Source of the DNA: Deltaproteobacteria bacterium
GTDB lineage: Bacteria; Desulfobacterota; Desulfomonilia; Desulfomonilales; Desulfomonilaceae
Reading direction: 5' to 3'
Assembly (NCBI GenBank): GCA_021777225.1
Contig: JAJYDQ010000011.1
Span: forward strand, 1-64,000
Length of the DNA: 64,000 nt
Below are positions 1,479-51,248 of the stretch, one piece after another. Below the pieces are notes generated by a model that was not told the DNA's origin, searched no databases, and was given only the letters and a program-made list of their open reading frames with translations. The translations under genes were made by a program, and so were the position numbers. How positions within the stretch are numbered: position 1 is the first letter of the stretch; the number at the start of each line of letters is the position of its first letter.

Positions 1479-2165
1479 TTAGGCTGGAACTCCATCTTCC
1501 TTCAGTTTACGGAGCTGACCGATCATCTTTATGGCCTCCTGTACCGCGTTCCCTGCGCTTTCGGCGTAACCATCAGCGCCGAAAAGATTCGCAACGTCCT
1601 TAGTTACTGGAGCCCCACCAAGCATAATAGCCACATCCGGGTTTTTCTCTTTGATCATCGCTATGACTTTTTTCATACCCATCATGGTGGTGGTCATCAT
1701 TGCGGAGAGCGCTACGATTTCGGAATCAGTTTTTAGCTGTTCTTCTGCGAATTTTTCTAGAGGCACGTCACGTCCCAAATCATGGACAGTAAAACCACCC
1801 ACATCGAACATCATTTTGATGAGGTTCTTTCCTATGTCATGCACGTCACCCTGGACAGTTCCAATGACAACCTGTCCCTTTACACCCGACGCGTCGTCGA
1901 TTTTAAGATGAGGTTTAAGAATATCAAGACCTGCATAAAGCGCATCTGCGCACATGAGAATTTCAGGGACGAAGTATTCCTGTCGGTCGTAAAGATCGCC
2001 GACTATCTCCATGCCCGCGGCCAAGCCATTCATGATGGCGTCGTAGGCATCCATTTTTTCATCGAGAGCGATGTTGGAGTATTCTTTGACCCGGTCTTCA
2101 TCGTACTCCACCACCCCTTCGGAGAGATTCTTAAGAATTTCTGCGCGTTTTTCTTCTGAAGCCAT
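1479..2165 (-). CDS. Methyltransferase corrinoid protein (MtaC/MtvC type)
   Basis: About 228 residues, the usual size of a methyltransferase cognate corrinoid protein. A helical cap domain (about 1-85) precedes a Rossmann B12-binding domain. GDVHDIGKN supplies the lower-ligand His of base-off cobalamin, and the GG near LGGAPV contacts the nucleotide tail. It carries the methyl group between substrate-specific and acceptor methyltransferases. I chose ATG 2165 over ATG 2183 because GGAGG sits 7 nt upstream of it; the upstream ATG overlaps that ribosome site. It follows a UroD-family gene by about 30 bp and is clearly in one operon with it. Confidence 0.9.
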   Translation of the reverse strand: MASEEKRAEILKNLSEGVVEYDEDRVKEYSNIALDEKMDAYDAIMNGLAAGMEIVGDLYDRQEYFVPEILMCADALYAGLDILKPHLKIDDASGVKGQVVIGTVQGDVHDIGKNLIKMMFDVGGFTVHDLGRDVPLEKFAEEQLKTDSEIVALSAMMTTTMMGMKKVIAMIKEKNPDVAIMLGGAPVTKDVANLFGADGYAESAGNAVQEAIKMIGQLRKLKEDGVPA

Positions 2166-2197
2166 TTGCTTTCCTCCATCCAATCATATGCAGTCGT

Positions 2198-3238
2198 TTA
2201 TAGTCTTCCCACCGCTGGAGAAGGCTGCTTTCCAAATTCCCTCACAGTATTGACCCACGCTTCCACGTTTTCCGGTTTTACGTCGGGCCAAATGTCGCAG
2301 CCAGGCCAAACGGCATCTACCCCGGCATCAATGCAGCCTTTTATGACTGCTGGCACTTCAGAGGCCTCTTTCTGACAAAGAGTTCCATAAGGATCAAAGT
2401 TTCCCAACAAAATAACGTCGTTGCCAATCTTTTTTCTGGTTTCAACTAGATTGTTTTTTTGATCAAAGCTAAGCGCATCCGCGCCGCAGTCATTCATCAT
2501 TTCAACGATCAAATCTGTTCCACCGCAAATGTGAAGAACCTTCGGGGATTCGAGCGCCTCAAAGATCTCGCGAAGATATGGTTGAATCAATTGTTTCCAC
2601 ATACGGGGAGAAAGAAGATCCGTTCCGGAACCCATTTCACGGATTGTCATGTAATCCACACCTAATGACTGGTAGTGTTTCGCCACATCGATGACCACAG
2701 AGGTCATTTTTTTCATAAAGGCTTGAACTTTATCAGCTTCCTTTTTGATTCCCTTAAGCAGCAGATCAAGTTCGATCACTTGTCCACCCAACGTAAAAGG
2801 TCCGAGTACCCAGCCTCCGACACCATATTTTCCCTCTGAAACAAGCTTTTTTAGAGCTTCCTCTACAACCGGCATCCTAGCCTTTGACGCCCAATCAGGA
2901 TTAATGTCGGCTGCGTCGAGGTTCTCCCACTTAGTGGGCACTGTGGGATACAGTATTCCTTCAGCGTTAGCGTATGTACTGCATCCCCGCCCCATAGCCT
3001 CAGGAATTGTACACATGTCATAGGGAACGATAACTGAATCAAATCCAAAAATGTCAGCGCTAAGTGTAGCTGACTTGGCCAGGTAGTCTGGGGAACCGTG
3101 CACTTCAGCGAAACGTATTCCCATTTTGTTGATCGCCTGAACCGTTACCATTCCCATTCCGCTGAAAATGGGCATTGTGTCGACGGGTTCTCGTTTCATA
3201 AACTTTTTTACCCGTTCTTTAGGAGTCATCACTGCCAT
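2198..3238 (-). CDS. UroD-family methyltransferase, MtaA/MtbA-like with intact zinc site
   Basis: 346 residues in the uroporphyrinogen-decarboxylase TIM-barrel family. HICGG gives H236-x-C238, and PGCDIWP gives C314. Together these are the zinc ligands that MtaA and MtbA use to activate a thiol or other methyl acceptor or donor. It therefore belongs to the methyltransferase branch and not to true haem-pathway HemE. It lies between the MtrH-like gene (3315) and the corrinoid gene (2165). In O-demethylase systems a UroD-family protein acts as substrate:corrinoid methyltransferase, so this or the next UroD gene is the likely substrate enzyme. The substrate cannot be read from sequence. Confidence 0.85.
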   Translation of the reverse strand: MAVMTPKERVKKFMKREPVDTMPIFSGMGMVTVQAINKMGIRFAEVHGSPDYLAKSATLSADIFGFDSVIVPYDMCTIPEAMGRGCSTYANAEGILYPTVPTKWENLDAADINPDWASKARMPVVEEALKKLVSEGKYGVGGWVLGPFTLGGQVIELDLLLKGIKKEADKVQAFMKKMTSVVIDVAKHYQSLGVDYMTIREMGSGTDLLSPRMWKQLIQPYLREIFEALESPKVLHICGGTDLIVEMMNDCGADALSFDQKNNLVETRKKIGNDVILLGNFDPYGTLCQKEASEVPAVIKGCIDAGVDAVWPGCDIWPDVKPENVEAWVNTVREFGKQPSPAVGRL

Positions 3239-3314
3239 CTATTAAATCCTCTCTTTATACAACTTCAACATAGCTTAAATCCGGCTTGACCATTTTCCGG
3301 AATACCTTTTTTGT

Positions 3315-4262
3315 CTACATGCCTTTTAGTTGCTCAATAAAATCCGGGAAGAGCTTTCTCAAGGGGTGGGTCTCCAATTCAGGTAATTTCTTGGTTTCCC
3401 CGTATACTAATGTGGCAAGGAAAGCATTAGACATCGCCACCGCCGGGAAAATCCTGTCTGATCCGGCCATCGGGCCGGAGAAGATCATGTCGTGGTAAAA
3501 ACAGGATGATAGAGCTTCCAAAGCAGCATCCGCGCCTGCCCAACCTTTTTGTCCCCACATCTCACGAGCGGCTTTCCACATGTAAGATCCGTTTGACGGA
3601 GCGCTAGCGCATGGGAAACCCCACTTTTCCTTTATGAGTTTGTTAGATAGTGAACACAGGGCTGTCGCTGGGCCATTCATTACCGAAGTGTCTACAAAAA
3701 TGCTTTCAAATTTTGCGCCCACTTTTTCGATCGCGTCTAGCAGTTTTTGAGTTCCGCTGATCCGACCGGTAGGCATCTGGTCCGTCGGATCAAAGGCCAC
3801 AAGCAATACGTGTTTGACTCCAATTGACGCTATTTCCTTGATTTCAGTCTCCACGTCCTTCTCCCAAACGGTAAGACTATTATAGAACATTCGATCTAAG
3901 AGGCCCTTTTCAGCACAGTAGGCCGCCGCTTCAAGCTTCGGCTTCATTACCCAGGCGTCAACGCAAAACGGCATGCATGTAACTTGAGTATAAAAATCAA
4001 CATAAGTTTTAAACTCTTCGCCTTTAGTGCCGACAATATCCGCCATGTAGGGAATGCCGGTTTCCATACACAGCTTATCGCACATCTTGACAAGTTCTGT
4101 GGCGCGTTCTCGGTCAAAGCCTTCTTTGCGTTTACCTTCAAAGACCTTGTCTCCCTTCTGAAAAATTGAAGGGACGATTACCGTGGGATAGGAACCCGGC
4201 TGACCGCCGAATTTGACTCCACCGACCTCGCACACTTTCTGCTTGGTCTCAAAACTAAACAT
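3315..4262 (-). CDS. MtrH-like methyltetrahydrofolate:corrinoid methyltransferase
   Basis: 315 residues. The opening, VGGVKFGGQPGSYPTV followed by SIFQKGDKVF, is characteristic of MtrH, the methyltransferase subunit of archaeal Mtr. Bacterial homologues (the MtvA/MtoA/MtgA class) pass the methyl group from the corrinoid protein to tetrahydrofolate. Later segments ADIVGTK and LLVAFDPTDQMPTGR fit the pterin-binding TIM barrel. ATG 4262 has AGGAGG a few bases upstream. Its presence says the methyl group of this cluster ends on a C1 pterin and is oxidised or used in the Wood-Ljungdahl pathway. That is inference from family and context. Confidence 0.87.
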   Translation of the reverse strand: MFSFETKQKVCEVGGVKFGGQPGSYPTVIVPSIFQKGDKVFEGKRKEGFDRERATELVKMCDKLCMETGIPYMADIVGTKGEEFKTYVDFYTQVTCMPFCVDAWVMKPKLEAAAYCAEKGLLDRMFYNSLTVWEKDVETEIKEIASIGVKHVLLVAFDPTDQMPTGRISGTQKLLDAIEKVGAKFESIFVDTSVMNGPATALCSLSNKLIKEKWGFPCASAPSNGSYMWKAAREMWGQKGWAGADAALEALSSCFYHDMIFSGPMAGSDRIFPAVAMSNAFLATLVYGETKKLPELETHPLRKLFPDFIEQLKGM

Positions 4263-4378
4263 TAGGGTCCTCCTTTTTGTTTCCCATTATTTTCCAATCA
4301 CACGATGCGGGTTTGGACAGTAACTCTGTATGAAGGTAAGTCCCTGCCTATGGTTGTCCTGCCTCATTTACTCACCTT

Positions 4379-5419
4379 CTACTTTTCCACCATGTGGTGT
4401 GGATATCTCGCGTAATATGTGTTGTAAAACTCAATGGCTTCTATTACTTGATCTATGTGTTCGACTGGAACATCGTAAGGCATGTCACAGCCTGGGGCGA
4501 AAACGTATCCCGTGCTACCCCCGGCCGCTAGTGAAATCAGAGCGTCTTCTCGAGGGGACACTAACCCTAGAGACATAGCTAGTGTCAGTTTCAAGTTCCC
4601 TCCAAAACCTACTTGGTGCTTCAGAGCAATGTCTCTAACGTAATTGAGGTTAAGCTGTTCATCAATTGCGAACCCATCGGTCCCTACCATGGCTACTTCT
4701 TCCAGGCACTTGGTTGCGTCACCACAGATAAAGAAACTCGAAACTTTACCGGCCTTCCTGGTAACCTTAATAGCAGATTGGGCGGCGGGGGTGACAAACT
4801 CACGAAAACTCTTTGGCTTGATAAGGGACGCTACTGGGTCGGTAATGGCAATCACGTCACATCCGATTTCCTCTGCGTAGATCCTGGCGGCTTCACCACC
4901 AACTTGACCACAGAAATCAATAATTTCTCTCGCAATAGCCTTGTTCTTGTACACATCGGTAAAAATTCTTACACCTCGCAAATGACTTGCCAAAGTCAAT
5001 GGCCCGCACAATATACCGTATAGCGCAACATCCGGCAGAGCTGCCCTCACCATTTTGCCCGCCTCTATTATTACGGGCCAGCGGCCATCTTTTGAACTTG
5101 GAATCTTGATCCCAGATTCGGCAAGACTTTTATTTTCAAGTGGGTGTCCAGTTATTGACGGAGGATTGTCTGGCCACCATTTGTGGTTGCAACCCATAGA
5201 AATTGCTTCTACTGTGAGGTCAAACAACAAGGGAATTCCGTCAGCCTTATAACGTTGGGCTGCATATATAACCCCTTTGGCAATGAGGTCCGGATCCTGG
5301 AGAAACTTGTCGGCTGGCTCACCGATCAAGAAAGCGCTGTGTACGCCCGAATACGGAACCCAAGGCACTTTCTCAGTGGCAAGTCCTTTGACGGCATCAA
5401 TAACATGCTGTTTGCCCAT
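4379..5419 (-). CDS. UroD-family methyltransferase with variant zinc motif (FxC)
   Basis: 346 residues, same fold family as the gene at 2198 but clearly divergent. At the usual H-x-C site it reads FFICGDA, that is F230-x-C232; the distal Cys is kept in APGCDMP (C311). So two of three zinc ligands remain and the His is replaced by Phe. It is the first gene of the cluster. Start ATG 5419 has GGGAG 5 nt upstream. It may be the substrate-specific methyltransferase I of an O-demethylase (the MtvB/VdmB role), where catalysis need not use an activated thiol. A nearby exposed His or Cys could substitute; a structure model would be needed to say. Confidence 0.82.
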   Translation of the reverse strand: MGKQHVIDAVKGLATEKVPWVPYSGVHSAFLIGEPADKFLQDPDLIAKGVIYAAQRYKADGIPLLFDLTVEAISMGCNHKWWPDNPPSITGHPLENKSLAESGIKIPSSKDGRWPVIIEAGKMVRAALPDVALYGILCGPLTLASHLRGVRIFTDVYKNKAIAREIIDFCGQVGGEAARIYAEEIGCDVIAITDPVASLIKPKSFREFVTPAAQSAIKVTRKAGKVSSFFICGDATKCLEEVAMVGTDGFAIDEQLNLNYVRDIALKHQVGFGGNLKLTLAMSLGLVSPREDALISLAAGGSTGYVFAPGCDMPYDVPVEHIDQVIEAIEFYNTYYARYPHHMVEK

Positions 5420-10960: not shown

Positions 10961-12586
10961 CTAACCGACAAAAAAGCTTTCGAGCCTAAAAAGCTTCTCG
11001 GGGCAAACTCGCTCACATCGTCTGCAAGCGACCCCATTGCATAAAGACTGATCCAGAACAATTGCTGGATAATCAGTCTCATCCCATATGATCAGGGCAT
11101 TCTCCGTACATGAGTTGACACATTCATGACACATCAGGCAACCCTCAATGTTAACTTGGATCCGTTGTCCGATGTCTGAGATAGTTTTCAAGCCAAATTC
11201 CCCAAGATCGTCTATGTCACGCTGGACAGTTCGTATAACTTCAGGAATCCATTCTATGGTCGGAAGTTCAGGAAACCCATATTTCTTTAGGAATTTTTGA
11301 TATTGTGAAAATGGCATCCCTTCAGTCCAATATGACAGTTCCAGAATATAAACTTTTTCAAAGACTTTAGACGCCGCAAACATACAATGGGTTTGGCGAA
11401 GGTTCTTTGCCAGATCACTCATCATGTCCAATTTTTGAGGATCGAGGACGAGATCTCGGGCCATGGCCAGCGAAGTGTTACCTACCTGATAAATTGTTTT
11501 GACCCTAGGAGGGATCATCCCTAAACGCTGAGCTTTGATAGGGTCTACGTAAGTTCCAGACGCTCCAGACATGTACGCGGTTGTCACGTCTTCAAGTTCT
11601 ATACCCGCCTCTTGGCAGAGAGTGATGTGACCGGCGCGTACAGATCCGATTGCTTTTCCAGCTTCCTTGAAATCCTCTTCCGTAAATATAATATCCGGCG
11701 CAAGACGAAATTCGGCATCCAGGGTATTTATTCGGGGGATGTTGATAAGTTTCCGCTCAATTCCCTGATGCACAATGGCGACAGTCCCAGTACCTGTTAT
11801 GCCTACAGGCTCAATCAAAGCATCGTCTATGACAGTTCCATTCTTGAGATCCAATAATGGTCCATCTATAGACATCATTTCTCGATCTAGAACTATGACC
11901 CTGTCATAACGTTCCGTTCCTACAAGATCTGAGATTGCTCCCGGCATGGCCAACATGCCACAGGTGATTTGCTGACCTTCAAGGGCTGGGCCGGCCGCCG
12001 TCGAACCTGTGATTACCCGGCCTTCGTGATACAAGGCCATTTCCGCGTTGGTTCCATAATCAGTTGTAAGGGAGGTTTCGTCTTTATCGAGCATCCCTGT
12101 CTGGATCATCATGGCTAAAGCATCAGCGCCAATCTCATGTCGAACGGCCGGTGGGATCATGACTTCTGCGTCCCCTGGTATCATCAGGCCCGGGATTTCT
12201 ACCGCTCTCAAAACGCTGGCATCTCGTTTTGGAGGAACAACACCAAGCGACTCAAGTTTTCGTTTACCTGCAAATGCTAAGTCCCGGATTTCAATCCTCT
12301 GGAACAGCGAGAGTTGAATCGGGTTTCCGCATACCGCCATCCGTACTATCCGATCTAGAGGAACTTGGAGTCGTCCCAAAACCTTGTTGATGGCTTCAAT
12401 CATGATACTGCCCGCCACATCTATCCCCATTTCCAGCGCAAAGTGAAGGTGATCTATCACGTTTGCTCCGGGCAGAGGATGTCGAGTGGTAATGGCGGTA
12501 GAAATAATTTTTCGCGAGTTTAGATCCATGGCTTGAGCCCTGAAACCACTCGTGCCTAAATCCATTGCAATCGCCAGATTAGTCAT
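10961..12586 (-). CDS. RamA-type corrinoid reductive activator (ASKHA + two 4Fe-4S)
   Basis: 541 residues, matching the length of RamA of methanogens (about 540). It opens directly with the ASKHA fold (AMDLGTSGFRAQAMD), has TTDYGTNAEMALY near residue 180, and ends with a ferredoxin-like domain: CLMCHECVNSC and CNGVACRRCERVC. RamA uses ATP and 4Fe-4S clusters to reduce cob(II) to cob(I) on methylamine corrinoid proteins. It differs from the 2Fe-2S RACE proteins at 1-1042 and 45182-46792, so this bacterium keeps both activator types. It probably serves the methanol operon, whose genes lie upstream on the same strand. GGAG sits 5 nt before ATG 12586. Confidence 0.88.
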   Translation of the reverse strand: MTNLAIAMDLGTSGFRAQAMDLNSRKIISTAITTRHPLPGANVIDHLHFALEMGIDVAGSIMIEAINKVLGRLQVPLDRIVRMAVCGNPIQLSLFQRIEIRDLAFAGKRKLESLGVVPPKRDASVLRAVEIPGLMIPGDAEVMIPPAVRHEIGADALAMMIQTGMLDKDETSLTTDYGTNAEMALYHEGRVITGSTAAGPALEGQQITCGMLAMPGAISDLVGTERYDRVIVLDREMMSIDGPLLDLKNGTVIDDALIEPVGITGTGTVAIVHQGIERKLINIPRINTLDAEFRLAPDIIFTEEDFKEAGKAIGSVRAGHITLCQEAGIELEDVTTAYMSGASGTYVDPIKAQRLGMIPPRVKTIYQVGNTSLAMARDLVLDPQKLDMMSDLAKNLRQTHCMFAASKVFEKVYILELSYWTEGMPFSQYQKFLKKYGFPELPTIEWIPEVIRTVQRDIDDLGEFGLKTISDIGQRIQVNIEGCLMCHECVNSCTENALIIWDETDYPAIVLDQSLCNGVACRRCERVCPEKLFRLESFFVG

Positions 12587-12693: not shown

Positions 12694-12903
12694 ATGAAAG
12701 CTTGTACCCGGTGTGGAGCATGGCATACTGACGCGGAAAAAAACGTAGGACGTTACATGTCATGCACCGAAGTTAAACAATACTGGTCCACCGTGAAACG
12801 TCTCCATATGGAGGAATCCGGCCACCTTGCCATGATAAAATTGGACAAAGACGGCCGTTTAGTCTGCATAAAATGCGGTAAAGACCTCTCTAACCTTCTG
12901 TAA
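12694..12903 (+). CDS. Small cysteine-rich protein, possible zinc ribbon
   Basis: 69 residues. It starts at ATG 12694 (CGGAGAG about 7 nt upstream); an in-frame start 90 bp earlier has poor support. It has CTRCGAWH at the N-terminus, a middle Cys (MSCTEV) and CIKCGKD at the C-terminus, so CxxC pairs bracket the protein as in zinc ribbons or rubredoxin-like folds. I do not recognise the family. It is the only plus-strand gene between RamA and the CobW group and its last 14 bp overlap the convergent gene at 12890. A metal- or redox-linked role beside the corrinoid activators is conceivable. Confidence 0.6.
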   Translation: MKACTRCGAWHTDAEKNVGRYMSCTEVKQYWSTVKRLHMEESGHLAMIKLDKDGRLVCIKCGKDLSNLL

Positions 12904-13465
12904 ATCCTAGTAGCACTGTCCCTGTGCCCCATTCGTCCATATCCTGATAGTATTTTTTCTTCAGAAACACATCTCCTGCGGTGGAAGGCGAGCAATAAAG
13001 ATAATTGGTAAATTCTCGAAACTCAGGGGCAGACTGTCCTTGGGTAAGGGCGGGTAATTCAAAGCAGCATTTTTTTTCAACTATATCATTGGGGAAATCA
13101 ACTTTGTCTTTGTAAATTACAAAATTTTTGTGAAGAAACCATACGTTTTCGTCCTTTTCCAGTTCTTGAATTCGAGTCGGGTCCCGAACCTCCTCGCCTA
13201 CAATTTCCTCATCTTTCTTGAGAAGAATGTGGGCCTGGCATCCCCAATCAAAAGCCATGTTTGTGATCGCCAATACAACAACAGGACGCCGAAGCACTTC
13301 ACGAATCCCACTATTGTAGCACATTCCCAAACCCATGAAAGCCTTCTTCTCGGCTTCAGTTTCGATCTCCAAGAGCCTGAAGCGATCGCTTTCTTCGAGC
13401 ACAAATGCGTCCAGTATTCCTTTGAGACACCGGATACGGACCAGTATCTGGTCATCCTTCGGCAT
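12890..13465 (-). CDS. Unrecognised protein downstream of CobW GTPase
   Basis: 191 residues from ATG 13465, preferred because GGAGG lies 8 nt upstream; a GTG at 13501 would overlap the previous gene and has no good ribosome site. The protein is acidic, soluble, without signal or membrane segments. It has scattered Cys residues (LGMCYNSG, FDWGCQAH, KKCCFELP, LYCSPS) that could bind metal. It follows the CobW-type gene by 20 bp and is presumably its partner. I do not recognise a family. It could be a client or metal-delivery partner of the GTPase. Confidence 0.65.
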   Translation of the reverse strand: MPKDDQILVRIRCLKGILDAFVLEESDRFRLLEIETEAEKKAFMGLGMCYNSGIREVLRRPVVVLAITNMAFDWGCQAHILLKKDEEIVGEEVRDPTRIQELEKDENVWFLHKNFVIYKDKVDFPNDIVEKKCCFELPALTQGQSAPEFREFTNYLYCSPSTAGDVFLKKKYYQDMDEWGTGTVLLGFTEG

Positions 13466-13485
13466 ATCCAACACCTCCGAGGCCA

Positions 13486-14427
13486 CTATTTCTCGAGACA
13501 CCCACCTAGAGAACTTTCCAGATATTCTTTTGCGATTTCCTGGCCAATTATGGAAACCACACTATATTTGGCGGCTGGAACAACTTCCACTCGCACTTCA
13601 CTGGAAGCGAGTTCCAGCTTGATCCATTCTTCAGGGGTCCTAAAGATGCCCTTTGCTCGGACAATTTTCCCGAAAGCCCCGAATTTCATTTTCTCAAAGA
13701 AAGATTCCAACCGCTGCCGGGAAAATGTGTTCAAAAACCTCTTACCATAGGACTGAAATTGATCCGCCAGCCCATGCTCATGTACGAAGTCTTGGGGCTG
13801 TAATTGAAATTCGTCCTCCCCTTGACCAGAAATTCCCAGAATTATTTCTAGCTCAGCATCATTTAATCGACCAAAGCTGGTTCGATAGACCATGACATCC
13901 GGGTTTATCTCCTTAATGGATTCAACTAGCAGATCCACCATCATGGGTTTTACCCGGTCGATTTTATTGAGCAATACTGATTTACTCCTCCGGATCTGAT
14001 TTTCAATGAAATTACGATGAGATTTTATGAATGACATGAACTCAGAAGCGTCCAAGAGATGAATAAGCCGAAGGTCTGAATACAGCTCTCGCATGTCTTC
14101 GCCTTCAAGTATCTGCATGATCTGCGAAATAGTCGCAACACCGGTAGGCTCTACAATTATCCGATCCGGCGACAACCTCTCATTGAGTTCCAACATTTGA
14201 CGTCTAAAATCTGCAGCCATAGTACAGCAGATGCAACCTGATGGTAACTCGACAATCTCCGCGATTTGCCCACCCTTTCCGGACAAAATTAAACCATCAA
14301 CACCAATTTCTCCAAATTCATTTACAAGGATGACCACCTTTTCTCCTACTGGTGGGGTTTCCATTAGGTAACGGATGAAGGTGGTCTTCCCAGCGCCGAG
14401 GAAACCATATACGACATTAACTATCAC
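13486..14427 (-). CDS. CobW/G3E family metal-chaperone GTPase
   Basis: 313 residues, GTG start with AGGAGG 5-7 nt upstream. The Walker A loop is GFLGAGKTT at residues 8-16, the metal-binding GCICC motif is near 65, EPTG near 93, and NKID near 153. These mark the G3E GTPases that deliver metals (Zn, Co, Ni) or support cobalamin enzymes. The C-terminal CobW domain is recognisable but divergent. Its position downstream of the zinc- and cobalt-dependent mta genes suggests it loads Zn into MtaB/MtaA or supports corrinoid handling. That is inference from context. Confidence 0.87.
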   Translation of the reverse strand: MIVNVVYGFLGAGKTTFIRYLMETPPVGEKVVILVNEFGEIGVDGLILSGKGGQIAEIVELPSGCICCTMAADFRRQMLELNERLSPDRIIVEPTGVATISQIMQILEGEDMRELYSDLRLIHLLDASEFMSFIKSHRNFIENQIRRSKSVLLNKIDRVKPMMVDLLVESIKEINPDVMVYRTSFGRLNDAELEIILGISGQGEDEFQLQPQDFVHEHGLADQFQSYGKRFLNTFSRQRLESFFEKMKFGAFGKIVRAKGIFRTPEEWIKLELASSEVRVEVVPAAKYSVVSIIGQEIAKEYLESSLGGCLEK

Positions 14428-14655: not shown

Positions 14656-15186
14656 TTAGAACGGAAAACATCCACCGGCCATCATATAAAAAGATGGTAC
14701 CCATAAACCAAAAACGACCCAAACGATTAGTGACCAGGCCAGTAGCGAGCTGGGGAACTTGCCATAGGCGTTTAGCCAAACCTCAAATGTCAGAACGGCA
14801 TATCCTGCGCAGGCGAACGCAAGGTAATTGCTTTTGATCACCAAAAGCTTACCGCCCTCCAGGACGGGACCACCGGTAAAGAAAAGAACCATATAGATGA
14901 TTGAAACTAGGGCCGTATAAAGACTTACATTTCCGACAGATCTCAGATCCTCCAGACCTGTAAGCAAAGCGTAGGATACAGCGCAATAAAAGATTCCGTG
15001 CGCAAACAACAATCCTGCAACAAACGGGTCCTTGAAGACAGCAGCCTGAAGTATGGCGCCCACGACTGTAACGGCGCCGACAAAGCCCGTGATTGCGCCG
15101 GTCCCTTTAGGCTCGCCTTTGCCCAGAAAGAATATTGCGACGGACAACCACATCGCGCCGATAGCGATAAGCACTGGCATTGCCAT
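14656..15186 (-). CDS. AmiS/UreI-like small-solute channel
   Basis: 176 residues and almost entirely hydrophobic, with about six membrane segments and short loops. The opening GAMWLSVAIFFLGKGEPKG and the Tyr/Trp-rich segments match the AmiS/UreI family of proton-gated amide and urea channels. It lies 164 bp after mtaB on the same strand, behind a hairpin. In this context it could admit methanol or a small amide or amine, but methanol crosses membranes freely and the substrate is unknown. Family assignment is moderate because the match is by composition and a few motifs. Confidence 0.6.
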   Translation of the reverse strand: MAMPVLIAIGAMWLSVAIFFLGKGEPKGTGAITGFVGAVTVVGAILQAAVFKDPFVAGLLFAHGIFYCAVSYALLTGLEDLRSVGNVSLYTALVSIIYMVLFFTGGPVLEGGKLLVIKSNYLAFACAGYAVLTFEVWLNAYGKFPSSLLAWSLIVWVVFGLWVPSFYMMAGGCFPF

Positions 15187-15350: not shown

Positions 15351-16718
15351 TTACAGACCGTATGCTTTAGGTTGGAATCCCTTAACTTTGGCGTATTTCT
15401 TCAGGCACATGTCGATAAAGTCCGCTTCCTTGTCAGGTAAAGCTTTCATATCCTTCATGTAACCCTCTAGTGATTCTTTCTCAAACACCGACAGCTTCAG
15501 CTTCGGGTCGCCTAGCATAAGCTCCCCACATTTCATGGCGGCGGCCTTTCCTCTAGAGTACAGGCTCTCGTTATTGTCAACGAGCGCTTTTCCTATTTGC
15601 CATGCATTGTCAGGACTTAGCATAAAGCCATGGCAACCGCGGTATTTATCAGAGTTCACCAGACATGCCTGAAATTCCTTCTGATACCCTAAATCTATCG
15701 AGGCGTTCATCGCTGCAACATCATAACCGAGTATTTCCGTAAACACTGCGGTAGTAGTGCCGCCAAACATATCGTGATACTCAACCGCTTCATTTGACCA
15801 TACATCGGTCACGGCCGCGATGACGTTGCCACATAGATCTGCATGGGCGCAGGCGCTTGTCTTCCCTTCGCAAGAGATCGGCACACCCGTAACAGACTTG
15901 ATGATCGGGTCTTCGTACGCGCAGTCCTTGGTAGGCCCGGTAGCTCCACATTCATAGGCCACTATGGTCCGACTGGCGCAGATGGCTCGCGAAAGAGCCG
16001 CGAGGGTATGTGGCACATCTTTAGAAAGGAAACCACCGGCCATGAACATTGCCGTGTTCGCTTCGGCACAGTTCGTGTCACCACCGGCTATACAATTGTA
16101 CTTCTTGGCTATGGCCACGATCTGGTTCCACATCCACTCCATGTCGATGCCGCCCAACACTGCCTGACCAAAAAGAAGCCCAGCGATGTCGTTTCTGATA
16201 ATGGCGTGATCGAAAATCTCCTTACCGCCCATGGACTCAATAGATACTACGTCGGCATACTTGGCGCATTCCGCAAAGGACTCAATGACTTCTCGAGTGT
16301 AATCGGAATCCCTCATGTCAACCATGTCTGGCTTGCGCAGGTCGGCCGGGGTAGCGCGATAGGCAGCTTTGAGGCCGTATTTCTGGAGATAGTCATCCAT
16401 CTGTTTCGCTGTCTGGGCAGCGATTTCTCCACCCCATTTGGGGTTATGCGTCATCTGAAAGATGTGCTCATTTTCTATAAGTAGTTGAGGATGTCCAACT
16501 ATGACGCATCTTTCCAAAGCGTCTCCGTTCGCCCTTTCATACTCACGTAGTAATGACTTCATGGTCTTTTCACTGCCGGGCCGTGGATGGGGGACGATTT
16601 CAGGTATTACATGTCCACCTCCGAATACCAAACCACGTTTGGTTTTCACGGGTTTTTTTGCCGTTCCAAACATCATTTCATCTGCGCTCTTATAGGCCAT
16701 TTCACTACTGAACTTCAT
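15351..16718 (-). CDS. mtaB: Methanol:corrinoid methyltransferase MtaB
   Basis: 455 residues, against about 461 for the Methanosarcina barkeri enzyme. The zinc ligands are all present at a constant offset of three: E161 (SIESMGG), C217 (GGDTNCAEA) and C266 (GPTKDCAYED) correspond to E164, C220 and C269. The family opening ADEMMFGTAKKPV and GLVFGGGHVIPE is clear. The enzyme cleaves methanol and methylates the cob(I)alamin of MtaC. It follows mtaC by 56 bp, with GGAGG 7 nt before the ATG. No oddity was seen; this looks like a working MtaB. Confidence 0.95.
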   Translation of the reverse strand: MKFSSEMAYKSADEMMFGTAKKPVKTKRGLVFGGGHVIPEIVPHPRPGSEKTMKSLLREYERANGDALERCVIVGHPQLLIENEHIFQMTHNPKWGGEIAAQTAKQMDDYLQKYGLKAAYRATPADLRKPDMVDMRDSDYTREVIESFAECAKYADVVSIESMGGKEIFDHAIIRNDIAGLLFGQAVLGGIDMEWMWNQIVAIAKKYNCIAGGDTNCAEANTAMFMAGGFLSKDVPHTLAALSRAICASRTIVAYECGATGPTKDCAYEDPIIKSVTGVPISCEGKTSACAHADLCGNVIAAVTDVWSNEAVEYHDMFGGTTTAVFTEILGYDVAAMNASIDLGYQKEFQACLVNSDKYRGCHGFMLSPDNAWQIGKALVDNNESLYSRGKAAAMKCGELMLGDPKLKLSVFEKESLEGYMKDMKALPDKEADFIDMCLKKYAKVKGFQPKAYGL

Positions 16719-16774: not shown

Positions 16775-17524
16775 TTAGCCGTTCCACTTGCCTCTCATTG
16801 CTTGCCAGTTGTCACCGGATAGAGCGTCCTCGGCCATACCAGGGGCCTGATTTGCCTCTTTGCCCCAGATACCCAGTTCGAAGCTCGTCACATATTCCTC
16901 GCTGACTGCGCCACCACCACACACGAAGGGAATATTTAATCCGAGACGCTTCAACTGCGACGCGATTTTGGGGAATGCGGTCATAGTTGTAGTCATAAGA
17001 GCCGTTCCTGTAACCATTACAGGGTTGTTTACCCGGCACGCTTCCACAACCTTGTCAACAGGGACATCGGCGCCGAGATTTATGACCTCAAAGCCGTTGG
17101 CGTTGAGGAGCGCATTAACAATCACCTGACCGATATCGTGGATGTCACCTTCTGCTGTGTGGGTAACAACCTTGCCTTTTTTATCCATGGCTTTACCCAT
17201 AGCTTCTTCGCACAGGGCTATGCCCGCATTCATGGCGTCTGAAGCCAAAATGACCTGAGGGAGAAAATAAACCCCCTCGTCCCAAAGCCGGCTCACTTCG
17301 TTCATGCCGGGGATAAGTCCTTCGTTGATAACATCCATCGGCGACTTCTTCTGAAGTGCTTCCTTGGTTAGTTTTGCCGATTCTTCATCATCCCCCCTCA
17401 CCACGGAATCGGCCACCTTTTGGAGTAGCTCGTCTTTTGAGACCTTGCGGGCTGCCTGACGAGCGACTTCGATGTTGAGGTCGTACCGGGTGAAGATGTT
17501 CGAATAATCCGTCAAGTACTTCAT
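16775..17524 (-). CDS. mtaC: Methanol corrinoid protein MtaC
   Basis: 249 residues. A helical cap (about 25-110, with EGVYFLPQVILASDAMNAG) is followed by the B12-binding domain with EGDIHDIGQV (lower-ligand His129) and CGGGAVSEEY. The N-terminal extension of about 25 residues is typical of MtaC as opposed to shorter corrinoid proteins. It accepts the methyl group from MtaB and passes it to MtaA. The gene lies between mtaA and mtaB with short gaps and has AGGAG upstream of ATG 17524. Confidence 0.94.
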   Translation of the reverse strand: MKYLTDYSNIFTRYDLNIEVARQAARKVSKDELLQKVADSVVRGDDEESAKLTKEALQKKSPMDVINEGLIPGMNEVSRLWDEGVYFLPQVILASDAMNAGIALCEEAMGKAMDKKGKVVTHTAEGDIHDIGQVIVNALLNANGFEVINLGADVPVDKVVEACRVNNPVMVTGTALMTTTMTAFPKIASQLKRLGLNIPFVCGGGAVSEEYVTSFELGIWGKEANQAPGMAEDALSGDNWQAMRGKWNG

Positions 17525-18682: not shown

Positions 18683-19324
18683 TCAGGCCGGTTGCCGTTG
18701 GTCTTCCAATCCCTCCTTCAACAGAAAAAGAGGCAGTTCGAATCCACTGACCGGCCCAATCGAGACTTGCCACCCAGTTGTTTGTTTGATCTGGCTGGCG
18801 AGATGCCGAGCCAAGCCTGGGATGACAAGGTTTCTGTGACTTACAAATGATCCCACTTCAGTTTCAGTGATTACTTTCAGTACCTCGAAAGGTGAAAAAC
18901 GCTTCTCGGCAACCGCATTGTCAAGGCTATAGCCTTTAGTATCACTCATAATTAGAAAGGCCGAAGTCTCGCAGGCTGTTAAAATGTTTTCCAGAAGTCG
19001 CGCTGTCTCCTTAAAGTTGCCTGTTATCAAAACCGGGCTGGATGCGGCGGGGGCGCCTACGCGCAAGAGACCGGGACTGAAACTTTCCATCATCACATTG
19101 TAGGGAATCGACGGTAAATCAAATTCCATGAGAGTATCGATTACCGCAGCCACTTTTGAGTCCATTTCGGGACATTGCTCAATCTTGGCGCCGTGCCCAA
19201 CAAGGGCTTCAGCAAATTCCAGACAACTCGAAAACCCACATGAGCGACAGTCGATATTAGGGAGGTACTCCACTATGTTTTCCTCAGTGAGAGGGTAAAG
19301 GTCTGCAAACTCTTGTTCGATCAT
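18683..19324 (-). CDS. Truncated CFeSP-like protein: 4Fe-4S domain fused to AcsC/CdhE-type C-terminal domain
   Basis: 213 residues from ATG 19324 (GGTGA 7 nt upstream; ATG 19366 has no ribosome site). Residues about 20-55 carry C-x2-C-x4-C-x16-C (IDCRSCGFSSC then EQCPEM), the 4Fe-4S motif of the corrinoid iron-sulfur protein large subunit AcsC/CdhE. From about 95 on, VLITGNFKET, SDTKGYSLDNAVAEK, LVIPGLARHL and TGWQVSIGP match the C-terminal B12-contacting part of that subunit. The central TIM barrel (about 240 residues) is absent. It is the first gene after the sigma54 promoter, so it is made with MtaABC. A plausible role is electron transfer to, or shielding of, the MtaC corrinoid; this is inference. 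Confidence 0.8.
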   Translation of the reverse strand: MIEQEFADLYPLTEENIVEYLPNIDCRSCGFSSCLEFAEALVGHGAKIEQCPEMDSKVAAVIDTLMEFDLPSIPYNVMMESFSPGLLRVGAPAASSPVLITGNFKETARLLENILTACETSAFLIMSDTKGYSLDNAVAEKRFSPFEVLKVITETEVGSFVSHRNLVIPGLARHLASQIKQTTGWQVSIGPVSGFELPLFLLKEGLEDQRQPA

Positions 19325-19480
19325 TAGCTTTTCACCCGCTCCACTCCACGAAACGATGTCCATCATATCTGTGTTGCGTGGCAGAACCTAAGTGGTCAAA
19401 AGTAAACTTCTCGTCAAACTCTGACATTAGTTGTTGGTTCAAGAGATCATGGAATATTGTTGACTGCCTTCATACTATTG

Positions 19481-19496
19481 AGCAATTGTTGTGCCA
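19481..19496 (-). promoter_or_regulatory. Sigma54 (-24/-12) promoter of the mta operon
   Basis: On the minus strand the sequence is TGGCAC-N5-TTGCT, an exact match to the sigma54 consensus with GG and GC ten bases apart. Transcription would start near 19470, about 145 nt before ATG 19324. A sigma54 activator gene lies immediately upstream. Confidence 0.88.
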
Positions 19497-19695: not shown

Positions 19696-21102
19696 TTATT
19701 CGGAAATCTTCTTGAAATCCGACCTGTTTAAACCGAATTGTTTTATCTTTCTTAAAACCGTGCGAGTGTCAATTTGGGCGTGGTTTGCGGTCAAGCCTAC
19801 GGAACCTCTGTTTTTTTTAAGTAGGTGCATAAAGTATTGTCTTTCAATCTTGTCCAAGGCTTGGTCCCTAACAGTCTTATAGGGGAGGTTTGGATCAAAA
19901 TCCAACCATTCTGAAGTGTTGGAGGTCTTTATATCGCTGGGCAAAAGAGAAAATGGAATTTCTTCAATCAAATTATCGGGGCAAAGGACCATAGCGCGCT
20001 CTATCACGTTTTCCAGTTCACGAACGTTACCCGGCCACGAATGTTTCATCAAGCTCAACATAGCCCCCTGGGATAACGCAGGTTTGTTCCTGTTTTTAGC
20101 CGCAGCGAGTTTTTCAAGAAAATGGTCTACCAATAAAGGCATATCTTCCAGTCGTTCTCGTAGAGAAGGCAGATGTATCGGTACCACATTAATTCGATAA
20201 TAGAGATCTAAACGAAATCGATTTGAGGTCAATTCTTGAGACAGATCCTTGTTCGTTGCGGCGATTATTCTGAAATCCAGGGATATTAATCTGTTACCAC
20301 CAAGCCGTTCGATCTTCTTCTCCTGAATGGTCCGGAGTAGTTTGCTTTGAAGCGCATAAGGCATGTCTGCGATTTCATCCAGAAATAGAGTGCCATTGTT
20401 CGCTAGTTCCAGTTTCCCGCTTTTGCGCCGCTGGGCACCGGTAAAAGCGCCTCGTTCATAGCCGAATAGCTCACTTTCAAGAAGGGTTTCCGGAATGGCC
20501 GCGCAATTCATCGCGACAAAAGGCCCAGTTTTACGGTGGCTATGAAAATGGATAGCTCTGGCTACCAGGTCCTTACCCGTACCTGTTTCACCGGTAATGA
20601 GCACTGAGGAATCGGTAGAGGATAACGATTCGATGAGATTGTAGATTTCTTGCATCCTAGGGTGTTTACCAACAAGGTTTTCAAAGCGGTATCGTTTAAG
20701 AAGGTCGGCCCTTAAAGCGACAACTTCACGTCTCAGGCGCCTTTCTTCAAATATTCGATTGAGTATGTGAAGTAATTTTTCAGGTATTACAGGCTTTTCG
20801 AGAAAATCGCTAGCTCCCAATTTCAGAGCGCTTACAGCAGTGGTTATGGATCCGTAGGCTGTTATGATTACGGCAAGTAGGTCTGGATTGATTTCTTTTG
20901 CGCTCCTAAGAAATGCCAGACCGTCCATTCCAGGAAGGATCATGTCAATCAGAAATAGATCATAATCTATCTCTTTCAAGAGCGCGAGCGCTTCTTCAGC
21001 ACTCGGCGCATAATCAGGAGCGTAACCCGCGGCCTCAAGTATCATGACCAACGTTTTAGCGGAATTTACATCGTCATCGACAATAAGTAATCGATATTGC
21101 AT
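19696..21102 (-). CDS. NtrC-family sigma54-dependent response regulator
   Basis: 468 residues. The receiver domain (1-120) has the acidic pocket VDDD and phospho-acceptor in [13 protein letters not shown]. The AAA+ domain (about 140-380) has Walker A GETGTGKD, the sigma54-contacting GAFTGA loop and [10 protein letters not shown] Fis-type helix-turn-helix ends the protein ([20 protein letters not shown]). It starts 7 bp after the kinase gene at 21110, so the two are a two-component pair. Its own strand and position, next to the sigma54 promoter at 19481, make it the probable activator of the mta operon. Confidence 0.93.
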
Positions 21103-21109
21103 ATAAACC

Positions 21110-23023
21110 TCACCGAATAGGCAAGTAGACCCGTACTCTAACCCCGCCGGTATGCCGGTTTTCTAAGGTTACGGCGCCTCCGTGTAAACGAACAATATGC
21201 TCTACTAACGGGAGCCCCAAACCCAGTCCACTTTCTTTTCTGGAAAAAAACGGCTTCATAGCGTTCTCGATTTCCTCTGACGTCATACCTGGACCATCGT
21301 CTTCAAACACGATCTCAGCAAATTCGAGTCGAGGCTCGGGGCCGTGCCTAATCTTCATCTTTCTTGTAGAAACCCATAAATGGCCGCCCCTGCTTATGGC
21401 CTCCATAGCATTCTTGATTATGTTCTGGAATGCTTGATTTATAAGAAATATATCTACTTTTGAGATTGGTAACTCTGGATCAAAAGATGTAATAATTTCG
21501 AATGCGTCCAGATCCGTCCAACCCTTAAAAAGACGAAGCGTATTCTTAAGAATATCGTTAATAGATTCAACGCTTAATTTTAATTCAGGAATTCTGGTAT
21601 ATTGTATAAACTCATTAATCATTCGATTCATAAGTTCAACCCGTTCGGTGACCGTCTGAAAAAGCTCCTTTTTTTCAGATTCCGTGATGTGTTCTTGTTG
21701 CAGAAGATGGAGGCCATACACGAGATTACTCAGAGGGTTCCTAATCTGGTGAGCTATGCCTGATGCAAGCTCCGCAAGCAACGCCATATTGCGGGATCGT
21801 TCGATCTCGTCAATGAGGAGATCTGTCGTAGAAGATCTCCTGTTGCTGTTTGATGTGAAGGGTCGTCCAACATGGTCAATTAGAAACTGCTGTTTTTTCT
21901 CCATGTCCAGTTTTTCTTTAGAGATAAGCTTCACCTGTCGTTCGAGGTCTCCCATCAACGATATGTGCTCTAAAAAAAGCCCTATCATGTTTAGCGTTAT
22001 CTTAAAAAGTCTGGTATCGCCAGGCTGGTCCTCGTTTTGCTGAAGTCCCAAAAAGCCTAGACCTAACAATTCACCATGATGATAAAGGGAAAACTCCAGA
22101 ACATTTTCAATCCTTTGGGAAGCCAGATGCGCCTTTAGAAGGTCTGGAAAGCAAGGATTACCGTTTACGGATTGAACACTAAAGCAATTCCATCCCGCGG
22201 ATTCTCCAGATGACCGCATCCTATTCTCGAAGTAAGGATTAAACCATGGATCCACACCCCTTTTCGGTTTCGTTTTTGGCGACTGGATTATTACACACTG
22301 TCGAGTCTCCGGAAAATAGATCACCCCCAATTTTGCTCTAACTAAGGGTAAAATGGTTTCGAGAGTATCTGTGAGCACATCTTCGACATTGTGCGATTGA
22401 ACTATCGCGTTTGAAATTGTGCTTAAGCAATAAAGTTCCTTACTAAGGTTGGAAACAAGTCCGCGTAAAACCCCTGTTGCCCTTTTCTCCTGATTCAAAC
22501 AATTCTTCAAATGCCCAATAATTCGATCCATGAGCAATATAGTCACATTTTTCGTAAATTCCCCAACAGCGTTCCGAATTATCCTGTCCTGTTTTTGGGA
22601 CAAAAAAAACAGTCCTGGACATTCAATTGTAACCATCCCCACCCAGCGATGCGGCAAATCCAGGTAATAATGAAATTGTGATCTGAGGACAAAAACCGGT
22701 TTTGAACAGCACTGAGCACGAGAACGTCCCGATAAATCTTCAGGCTCGTCTGTTTCAAAAGTCCATGTTCCGCGATCATGGGTTTGCCTAGCACGAATTA
22801 TCAAGTGATTATCGTTGTCTCGAATAAAAAGTGTAAGACTTTTTGCCCCCAACCAGTCCCCCAACTGTTTTAAGATTCGATCTGAATACCTTTCCAGTCT
22901 TCTTTGAGCTTCTCCTTCCAAATCAGACGACATTTCATCAGGTCTGTCAGAAGAAACAGTATCGTCTTCGGGGAAGGATTCCTGACGAATTAATTGCTGT
23001 GATCCTATTTTTTTTGAAAACAA
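21110..23023 (-). CDS. Cytoplasmic GAF histidine kinase
   Basis: 637 residues from a TTG start with GAGG 7 nt upstream. One or two GAF-like regions (about 30-170 and 200-360) are followed by a HisKA domain with phospho-His in ELASGIAHQIRNPLSN, and an ATPase domain with NIIKNAMEA (N box), FEDDGPGM (G1) and GLGLGLPLVEHIV (G2). No membrane segment is seen, so it senses an internal signal such as redox, methanol or a C1 metabolite. It is paired with the NtrC-type regulator at 21102. Confidence 0.9.
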   Translation of the reverse strand: MFSKKIGSQQLIRQESFPEDDTVSSDRPDEMSSDLEGEAQRRLERYSDRILKQLGDWLGAKSLTLFIRDNDNHLIIRARQTHDRGTWTFETDEPEDLSGRSRAQCCSKPVFVLRSQFHYYLDLPHRWVGMVTIECPGLFFLSQKQDRIIRNAVGEFTKNVTILLMDRIIGHLKNCLNQEKRATGVLRGLVSNLSKELYCLSTISNAIVQSHNVEDVLTDTLETILPLVRAKLGVIYFPETRQCVIIQSPKTKPKRGVDPWFNPYFENRMRSSGESAGWNCFSVQSVNGNPCFPDLLKAHLASQRIENVLEFSLYHHGELLGLGFLGLQQNEDQPGDTRLFKITLNMIGLFLEHISLMGDLERQVKLISKEKLDMEKKQQFLIDHVGRPFTSNSNRRSSTTDLLIDEIERSRNMALLAELASGIAHQIRNPLSNLVYGLHLLQQEHITESEKKELFQTVTERVELMNRMINEFIQYTRIPELKLSVESINDILKNTLRLFKGWTDLDAFEIITSFDPELPISKVDIFLINQAFQNIIKNAMEAISRGGHLWVSTRKMKIRHGPEPRLEFAEIVFEDDGPGMTSEEIENAMKPFFSRKESGLGLGLPLVEHIVRLHGGAVTLENRHTGGVRVRVYLPIR

Positions 23024-23731: not shown

Positions 23732-24238
23732 CTAGTCAAGAAGGACCATCGTAAACCACGCTGGTAACAGATTTCCCTGAGCGTCAAATTCGACCTTGAA
23801 TCCGAGGGATTCAACTGTCTTGGCTATGTCTATGCCCAAACCATCCATTGACGGTCTTGCAAGATGCGGAAACCTACAAGGATCAGGAAAAGCGCACTCT
23901 TCGCACTGAACACATAGGGCCATTCCGAATGCAAAGGTAGCCCCATATTCCAGCATCGCTTTCTTTTCCACGACCAAGGTTATTTCCTGGGCGATCTTGG
24001 GCTCTACACATTGGAGGACTATTGCGGTCTTATACTTTTTAAGCGACTCCCTAAATTCGTCAATTGATATGCCTACATTTGGTTGACACGTCCAATACTT
24101 CCCCCATCGGCCGCATCCGAAACGACATTTTAAAAGTGAACGCGGATCCAACACTATGTCTCTTGCGCTCATAAGCTTTACATCGGCAGCCCCTTTTGAT
24201 TTGGCGTATTGGACCAGACCCTCAAATGACTGTTCCAA
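23732..24238 (-). CDS. DUF2284 metal-binding protein
   Basis: 168 residues from a TTG start preceded by AGGAGG. The Cys-rich pattern CRFGCGRWGKYWTC in the first third, and CVQCEECAFPDPC near residue 115, are the signature of DUF2284 putative Fe-S proteins, which occur in anaerobes next to redox and corrinoid genes. The function is unknown. It lies between the phosphoesterase and the flavin-protein gene on the same strand, with nearly 200 bp to the latter. Confidence 0.8.
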   Translation of the reverse strand: MEQSFEGLVQYAKSKGAADVKLMSARDIVLDPRSLLKCRFGCGRWGKYWTCQPNVGISIDEFRESLKKYKTAIVLQCVEPKIAQEITLVVEKKAMLEYGATFAFGMALCVQCEECAFPDPCRFPHLARPSMDGLGIDIAKTVESLGFKVEFDAQGNLLPAWFTMVLLD

Positions 24239-50777: not shown

Positions 50778-51248
50778 AGGAAGATTGGTATAATTAAAGA
50801 ATGAGATCATTAGCTCAAATAATATAGGTGAATCTGCCAGATTTACTATTCTTGATTAAAATCCTCTTATTCTTTACTCTAGCTCTTCTTTTAACTCCAA
50901 TCAAAAATACAGTCTTTTAACTAATTGTTCTTATGAGCTTTTTCGTAACCGGCTGGACAAGCTTATAAGTGTGGCACATAAATTGCTCTGAAAAATCTAA
51001 CGCAGTTGAAGGTTTCAGAGTTCAGTAGCCGTTGATTGGTATCTTTTCGCGTATATCTGGAAATTTTCGTGAAAAGCTGTGTCGATACTCTTCTGATAAT
51101 AGCTTGCATGGTTAGGGGTTACCATGCGGTAGCTTTCCAACATCTCAGAATTAAAACATTCTAGTGGATGGAGCAAAGAAGCATGAAAAGTTGTCTTGGC
51201 GAGAATACTAAGACCACGCCAATCAGTTAGATGAGAAAGGAGGCCGCC
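50740..51248. other. Gap of about 500 bp with sigma54 promoter and long leader
   Basis: It contains the hairpin above and a perfect sigma54 promoter at 50972-50987. A hydrophobic 30-codon frame at 50828-50920 lacks a ribosome site. From the predicted start near 50998 the mRNA leader to GTG 51249 would be about 250 nt, with no recognised riboswitch. Confidence 0.5.
50972..50987 (+). promoter_or_regulatory. Sigma54 (-24/-12) promoter
   Basis: TGGCAC-N5-TTGCT is an exact consensus match with GG and GC ten bases apart. It points to the genes at 51249 and 51606 and lies 233 bp downstream of the sigma54 activator gene at 48886, which probably drives it. Confidence 0.86.

Follow-up and report, generated by a model that had tools for sequence, protein, structure and literature searches.

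A CFeSP-type protein without its TIM barrel, a putative accessory relay, heads methanol methyltransferase operons in Desulfomonilaceae

To our knowledge, few natural uses have been made of the corrinoid fold of the corrinoid iron-sulfur protein (CFeSP), namely in AcsC/CdhE, in HgcA and in the Mmp10/DUF512 enzymes. The corrinoid domain of CFeSP reacts by meeting a TIM-barrel or an activator partner, as in the complexes 4djd and 4c1n, and members of the AcsE family natively dock on a corrinoid domain of this type. In methanogens, the UroD-type MtaA methylates a thiol. The methanol cluster of Moorella consists of mtaABC only. Class 2 cobalamin-dependent radical SAM enzymes (Mmp10 and DUF512) have a corrinoid fold that resembles the one of CFeSP and includes a cap helix (PMC13331322). 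Here we describe a protein, referred to as mini-CFeSP, which is encoded upstream of the methanol methyltransferase genes in a 64-kb window (the whole stretch of DNA that was analysed) from a member of the Desulfomonilaceae and which combines two domains of CFeSP in half its length. In the literature searched, most subscription papers lying outside its scope, we found no CFeSP without a barrel described from a methanol operon.

Both halves of mini-CFeSP matched AcsC/CfsA chains in the PDB, one the N-terminal cluster domain and the other residues 321-434. Using hmmscan against Pfam, we found PF04060 at aa 21-52 (E 9e-13), with the cysteine spacing C26-x2-C29-x4-C34-x16-C51 that is also present in AcsC, and PF03599 at aa 83-192 (E 3e-16). 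The latter match covers positions 269-378 of the 387 in the profile, which correspond to its C-terminal part only, and the two domains are separated by a linker of about 30 residues. This leaves no room for a TIM barrel, so the barrel is absent rather than merely diverged. The initial annotation had described a protein that keeps the 4Fe-4S domain and the C-terminal domain of AcsC/CdhE and lacks the barrel, and had suggested a profile search against CdhE/AcsC; the matches bear out this architecture, including the C-terminal half. Among the NCBIfam models, mini-CFeSP scored 124.7 bits against NF003195, below the equivalog cut-off of 306 bits, and also matched the HgcA model NF040863 (E 3e-18). 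Translation was taken to start with MIEQEF at 19324, which is the conserved start among the relatives; an in-frame ATG is also found at 19366. The coordinates of the protein, its domains and its neighbours are compiled in Table 1.

Table 1. Features of the mini-CFeSP locus, given in window coordinates
Feature	Coordinates	Strand	Basis or remark
mini-CFeSP, 213 aa, [4Fe-4S] domain and CFeSP-type corrinoid-binding domain, without TIM barrel	18683..19324	-	profile, PDB and model matches
[4Fe-4S] domain of mini-CFeSP, PF04060, aa 21-52	19169..19264	-	Cys26, Cys29, Cys34, Cys51
CFeSP C-terminal-type corrinoid-binding domain, aa 83-203: Thr101, Asn103, Thr107, cap helix Leu134-Asp135-Asn136, Gly190-Pro191	18716..19078	-	profile, alignment, model
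sigma54 -24/-12 promoter TGGCACAACAATTGCT	19481..19496	-	172 nt upstream of the mini-CFeSP start codon; 11/11 consensus positions
mtaA, UroD-type (thiol-type) methylcobamide methyltransferase, zinc ligands HxC (236-238) and C314	17588..18604	-	
mtaC, methanol corrinoid protein, own DxHxxG corrinoid site	16775..17524	-	
mtaB, methanol:corrinoid methyltransferase	15351..16718	-	family matches
AmiS/UreI-type channel	14656..15186	-	Pfam; kept in relatives
CobW-type GTPase	13486..14427	-	family matches; kept in relatives
203-aa protein, no Pfam/NCBIfam match	12890..13501	-	conserved in mta clusters, also those without mini-CFeSP
RamA-type corrinoid reductive activase	10961..12586	-	TIGR04270, E 1e-235
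NtrC-type sigma54 response regulator, upstream of the promoter	19696..21102	-	conserved neighbour
GAF/histidine kinase	21110..23023	-	conserved neighbour

The structure of mini-CFeSP was predicted by AlphaFold2 from an alignment of 28 sequences (mean pLDDT 89, pTM 0.86). Residues 78-203 of the model superimpose on residues 316-441 of CFeSP (2h9a) with a Z score of 19.7 (VIA-align; 126 residues at 1.3 A), compared with Z scores of 13.1 for an HgcA model and of 5-6 for DUF512/Mmp10. The chain ends about 10 residues past the corrinoid domain and is devoid of a five-helix membrane domain like that of HgcA. In HgcA, the modelled corrinoid contacts are Thr60, Thr66, Val91 and Ala153, with Cys93 as axial ligand and with Thr60 and Thr66 touching the corrinoid tail (PMC7305189). 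By alignment and residue spacing, Thr60, Thr66, Val91, Ala153 and Cys93 correspond to Thr101, Thr107, Leu134, Gly194 and Asn136 of mini-CFeSP. Position 101 is Thr or Ser in all 28 mini proteins and position 107 is Thr, with a single Ser; moreover, Asn103, Gly131, Asp135 and Gly190-Pro191 are invariant in the whole set. The residue expected beneath the cobalt varies between clades: position 136 is Asn in all eight members of the Mta/near-Mta clade and Met in all 20 of the wider clade, and at the aligned position HgcA has Cys and AcsC has Thr. The surrounding cap helix is altered as well, with LDNAVAEK (residues 134-141) in place of the NVWCAAGK of HgcA, Asn136 standing at the position of the Cys and the AAGK that follows the cap residue reading AVAEKR. 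The four cluster cysteines are kept in 8/8 proteins of the Mta/near-Mta clade and in 8/20 of the wider clade, the other 12 lacking at least one of them. Since the homologous domain is the corrinoid binder of CFeSP and HgcA (PMC7305189, PMC13331322) and its contact residues are kept, mini-CFeSP probably holds its own corrinoid. It had been proposed earlier that the lost barrel carries the methyl group; this was mistaken, because in CFeSP and HgcA the corrinoid sits in the very domain which mini-CFeSP retains (PMC7305189, PMC13331322). Taken together, the conserved cluster and the conserved corrinoid pocket point to a self-contained corrinoid iron-sulfur protein.

A whole-genome search with PF03599 retrieved an intact AcsC, an AcsD-like protein (matched in its barrel part), mini-CFeSP and one HgcA. 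Because the genome has an intact AcsC, mini-CFeSP is an additional protein and not the AcsC of this organism, and a replacement role was ruled out by the presence of canonical AcsC, AcsE and ACS in the same genome. Likewise, a fragment or pseudogene of acsC was ruled out by the constant length in 28 relatives, by purifying selection on the mta-type mini genes (dN/dS 0.08-0.14 where dS is measurable), by a separate branch in the tree and by the intact AcsC. In the corrinoid-domain tree, all 28 mini proteins fall on one side of a branch (support 94/90), and AcsC (98/97) and HgcA (100/99) form groups of their own. With moderate support, this tree makes the mini proteins a likely third lineage, separate from AcsC and HgcA.

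The genes are ordered histidine kinase, response regulator, promoter, mini-CFeSP, mtaA, mtaC, mtaB, AmiS, CobW, the 203-aa protein and ramA. The promoter has the consensus form TGGCAC-N5-TTGCT and is the sole 11/11 match on the minus strand of the window. The only other perfect -24/-12 site of the window, TGGCACATAAATTGCT, lies at 50972 on the plus strand. With a gap of 78 nt to mtaA, mini-CFeSP is likely co-transcribed with the mta genes. No cobalamin riboswitch was detected in its leader with Rfam at gathering thresholds. Further away, a DUF2284 gene is found just upstream of the kinase (window 23732-24238, minus strand) and likewise in two close relatives. Moreover, the window contains a second corrinoid methyltransferase set (1479-5419, minus strand), which comprises a B12-binding protein, a UroD-type methyltransferase, an MtrH-like methyltransferase (3315-4262) and another UroD protein; in genome G289, the mta cluster is followed at a distance of about 3 kb by the first three genes of this set.

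The mini gene is present in 6 of 18 genomes of the family Desulfomonilaceae. In all six, the kinase, regulator, mini and mtaA genes lie side by side, and mtaC-mtaB follow wherever the contig extends (five genomes; the contigs end at mtaA in G011 and inside mtaB in G003). All mta operons of the family for which upstream sequence is available begin with the mini gene, and MtaB is confined to the same genomes, except for a short MtaB-like fragment in G007. The sigma54 site recurs 109-332 nt upstream of the mini gene in the five relatives, with 11/11 consensus positions in four and 10/11 in one. The initial annotation had placed the gene first in the methanol operon behind a sigma54 promoter and had made its reading depend on a genetic link with mta genes in other genomes; both the gene order with its 11/11 site and the recurrence of adjacency and promoter in five related genomes agree with it. 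The link to mta is confined to Desulfomonilaceae. Elsewhere in the phylum, G289 and G292 carry a cluster of regulator, mtaA, mtaC, CobW, AmiS, mtaB, ramA and the 203-aa protein from which the mini gene is absent, and it is likewise missing beside the mtaC-mtaB-ramA genes of G293. Any role of mini-CFeSP can therefore not be general to MtaABC, of which it is not a required core component.

Other copies occur away from mta genes. G292 has one with 46% identity outside its mta cluster, next to ArsM-like, ArsR-like and ArsC-like genes as judged by eye (L067, 5746-8627), and G408 has one with 43% identity between a DUF2284 gene, which directly precedes it (L068, 236-862), and HdrCBA-like genes. More distant relatives of about 200 aa and 26-33% identity (L041-L060) were found in 20 further genomes among 395 sampled from the phylum of the window only; they have no mta genes nearby, and many of them adjoin receiver-domain, GlgC-like and histidine phosphatase genes. 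A link of this wider family to corrinoid biosynthesis was considered and rejected, as by eye only one locus (L052) has CobD/CbiB-like neighbours, the aminotransferases at L053 and L060 resembling HisC. A search of plasmids gave one partial match, with 30% identity over the corrinoid-domain region.

What could such a protein do in a methanol operon? Most likely it functions as an accessory methyl or electron relay, and its role may possibly be tied to MtaC. The reading we favour, to which we give somewhat less than an even chance, is that mini-CFeSP is a free-standing corrinoid iron-sulfur protein that acts as an extra carrier beside MtaC and relays methyl groups to a tetrahydrofolate methyltransferase. 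The C-terminal Rossmann domain would form a CFeSP-type cradle in which the corrinoid is bound base-off and the cap helix places Asn136 beneath the cobalt, and the N-terminal [4Fe-4S] cluster would reduce the cobalt as in CFeSP. Mini-CFeSP would be made together with the methanol system. Since it has no barrel and the CFeSP corrinoid domain reacts with a partner, that partner would have to supply the barrel, and MtaA, the immediate neighbour, is the most plausible one. The most likely step would be a relay from MtaC through MtaA to mini-CFeSP and on to AcsE, which is encoded in the genome, or to the nearby MtrH-like protein, both of which are candidates for corrinoid-to-tetrahydrofolate methyl transfer. 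The sequence, the predicted fold, the conserved pocket residues and the operon position are observed; corrinoid binding, cluster binding, the methyl-relay role and the partners are inferred. A relay of methyl groups from MtaC via mini-CFeSP would be a step not described for MtaABC in the literature searched, and we know of no precedent for corrinoid-to-corrinoid methyl transfer through MtaA. No match to the ComA gene of coenzyme M synthesis was found in the genome, so that the methyl acceptor of its UroD-type MtaA is otherwise unclear. The ramA gene in the same cluster also speaks for the favoured reading, as do the fold match, the conserved pocket residues and cluster cysteines, the place of the mini gene at the head of the mta operons of the family, the purifying selection and the presence of canonical AcsC, AcsE and ACS in the genome. 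Against it stand the complete corrinoid site that MtaC already has, the mta clusters of G289 and G292, which show mini-CFeSP to be dispensable to the chemistry in general, the altered cap helix and the faster evolution of the mini gene compared with mtaA and mtaC. Furthermore, the MtrH-like methyltransferase near the cluster could handle the folate step alone. The more comprehensive proposal of a third CFeSP-type lineage, which has no barrel of its own and Asn or Met beneath the cobalt and which in Desulfomonilaceae takes the methyl group of methanol from MtaC and passes it on to tetrahydrofolate or to the acetyl-CoA pathway, is doubtful as a whole.

Several other roles were weighed, of which an electron relay and a corrinoid-loading role are the ones to be taken seriously. 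Rather unlikely, but the strongest of these, is an electron relay in which the cluster, perhaps together with the corrinoid, feeds electrons to RamA or MtaC and rescues inactive Co(II) without any methyl transfer. The strict conservation of the [4Fe-4S] site in the Mta/near-Mta clade, the position of ramA in the cluster, the best Foldseek match of the model (the CFeSP chain of the activator complex 4c1n) and the HdrCBA-like or CCG-domain (Hdr-type) genes beside the closest non-mta relatives are all consistent with it. However, according to Pfam, RamA already has a ferredoxin-type 4Fe-4S region at its own C terminus, the conserved corrinoid pocket would be superfluous in a pure electron carrier, and mta clusters with RamA but without mini-CFeSP exist. 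We consider it still less likely that mini-CFeSP is a chaperone which keeps the corrinoid base-off and delivers it to apo-MtaC, be it for first loading or for reloading: this would suit the tail-binding residues, which stay more constant than any other feature across the whole family and are kept even in the 12 of 20 distant relatives with a degenerate cluster site, but it leaves the strictly kept cluster of the mta clade unexplained, and corrinoid biosynthesis genes adjoin one distant relative only. A sensor whose corrinoid or methylation state signals to the neighbouring kinase and sigma54 regulator is improbable; mini-CFeSP has no output domain and similar sigma54 regulators are also found next to mta clusters without it, even though the kinase and regulator genes adjoin it in 6/6 genomes and many distant relatives lie next to a receiver-domain gene. 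Finally, the cap suggested by the initial annotation, a mini-CFeSP that docks on the corrinoid of MtaC and binds none itself, fits the operon context but was rejected as the lead reading and has a very slim chance, since capping in CFeSP is done by TIM barrels, which mini-CFeSP lacks, and the kept domain, with its conserved contact residues, binds corrinoid in every characterised relative and thus deprives this suggestion of its basis.

As a small soluble protein in which this fold is combined with one cluster, mini-CFeSP would offer a minimal model of how corrinoids are reduced and methyl groups transferred, and it would provide a natural series of residues under the cobalt (Thr, Cys, Leu, Asn and Met) for comparison. 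Moreover, it would bear on the fate of the methanol methyl group in bacteria that have a UroD-type MtaA and apparently no coenzyme M.

Among the described systems, mini-CFeSP is linked to mtaA of the MtaABC system in all six genomes as an addition that mta clusters elsewhere in the phylum do without. To Mmp10 and DUF512 there is a weak match only, and mini-CFeSP has no radical SAM domain. With the RnfB-type PF04060 domain it has the small Fe-S domain in common, without the ferredoxin tail or the membrane complex. The genome of the window also encodes HgcA (with NVWCAAGK) and, after it, a dicluster ferredoxin resembling HgcB (L061, G000 contig C90, 8896-10320, minus strand), which makes the organism a predicted mercury methylator. 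Like HgcA, mini-CFeSP uses the corrinoid domain without a barrel; it differs in having no Cys axial ligand and no membrane domain, in its separate branch of the tree and in carrying the cluster in the same chain, whereas that of HgcA resides in HgcB. With AcsC/CfsA/CdhE it shares the [4Fe-4S] spacing and the C-terminal corrinoid domain, but it is half as long, lacks the TIM barrel with which AcsC pairs with AcsD, has Asn instead of the Thr of AcsC under the cobalt and is encoded in a methanol operon instead of an ACS cluster.
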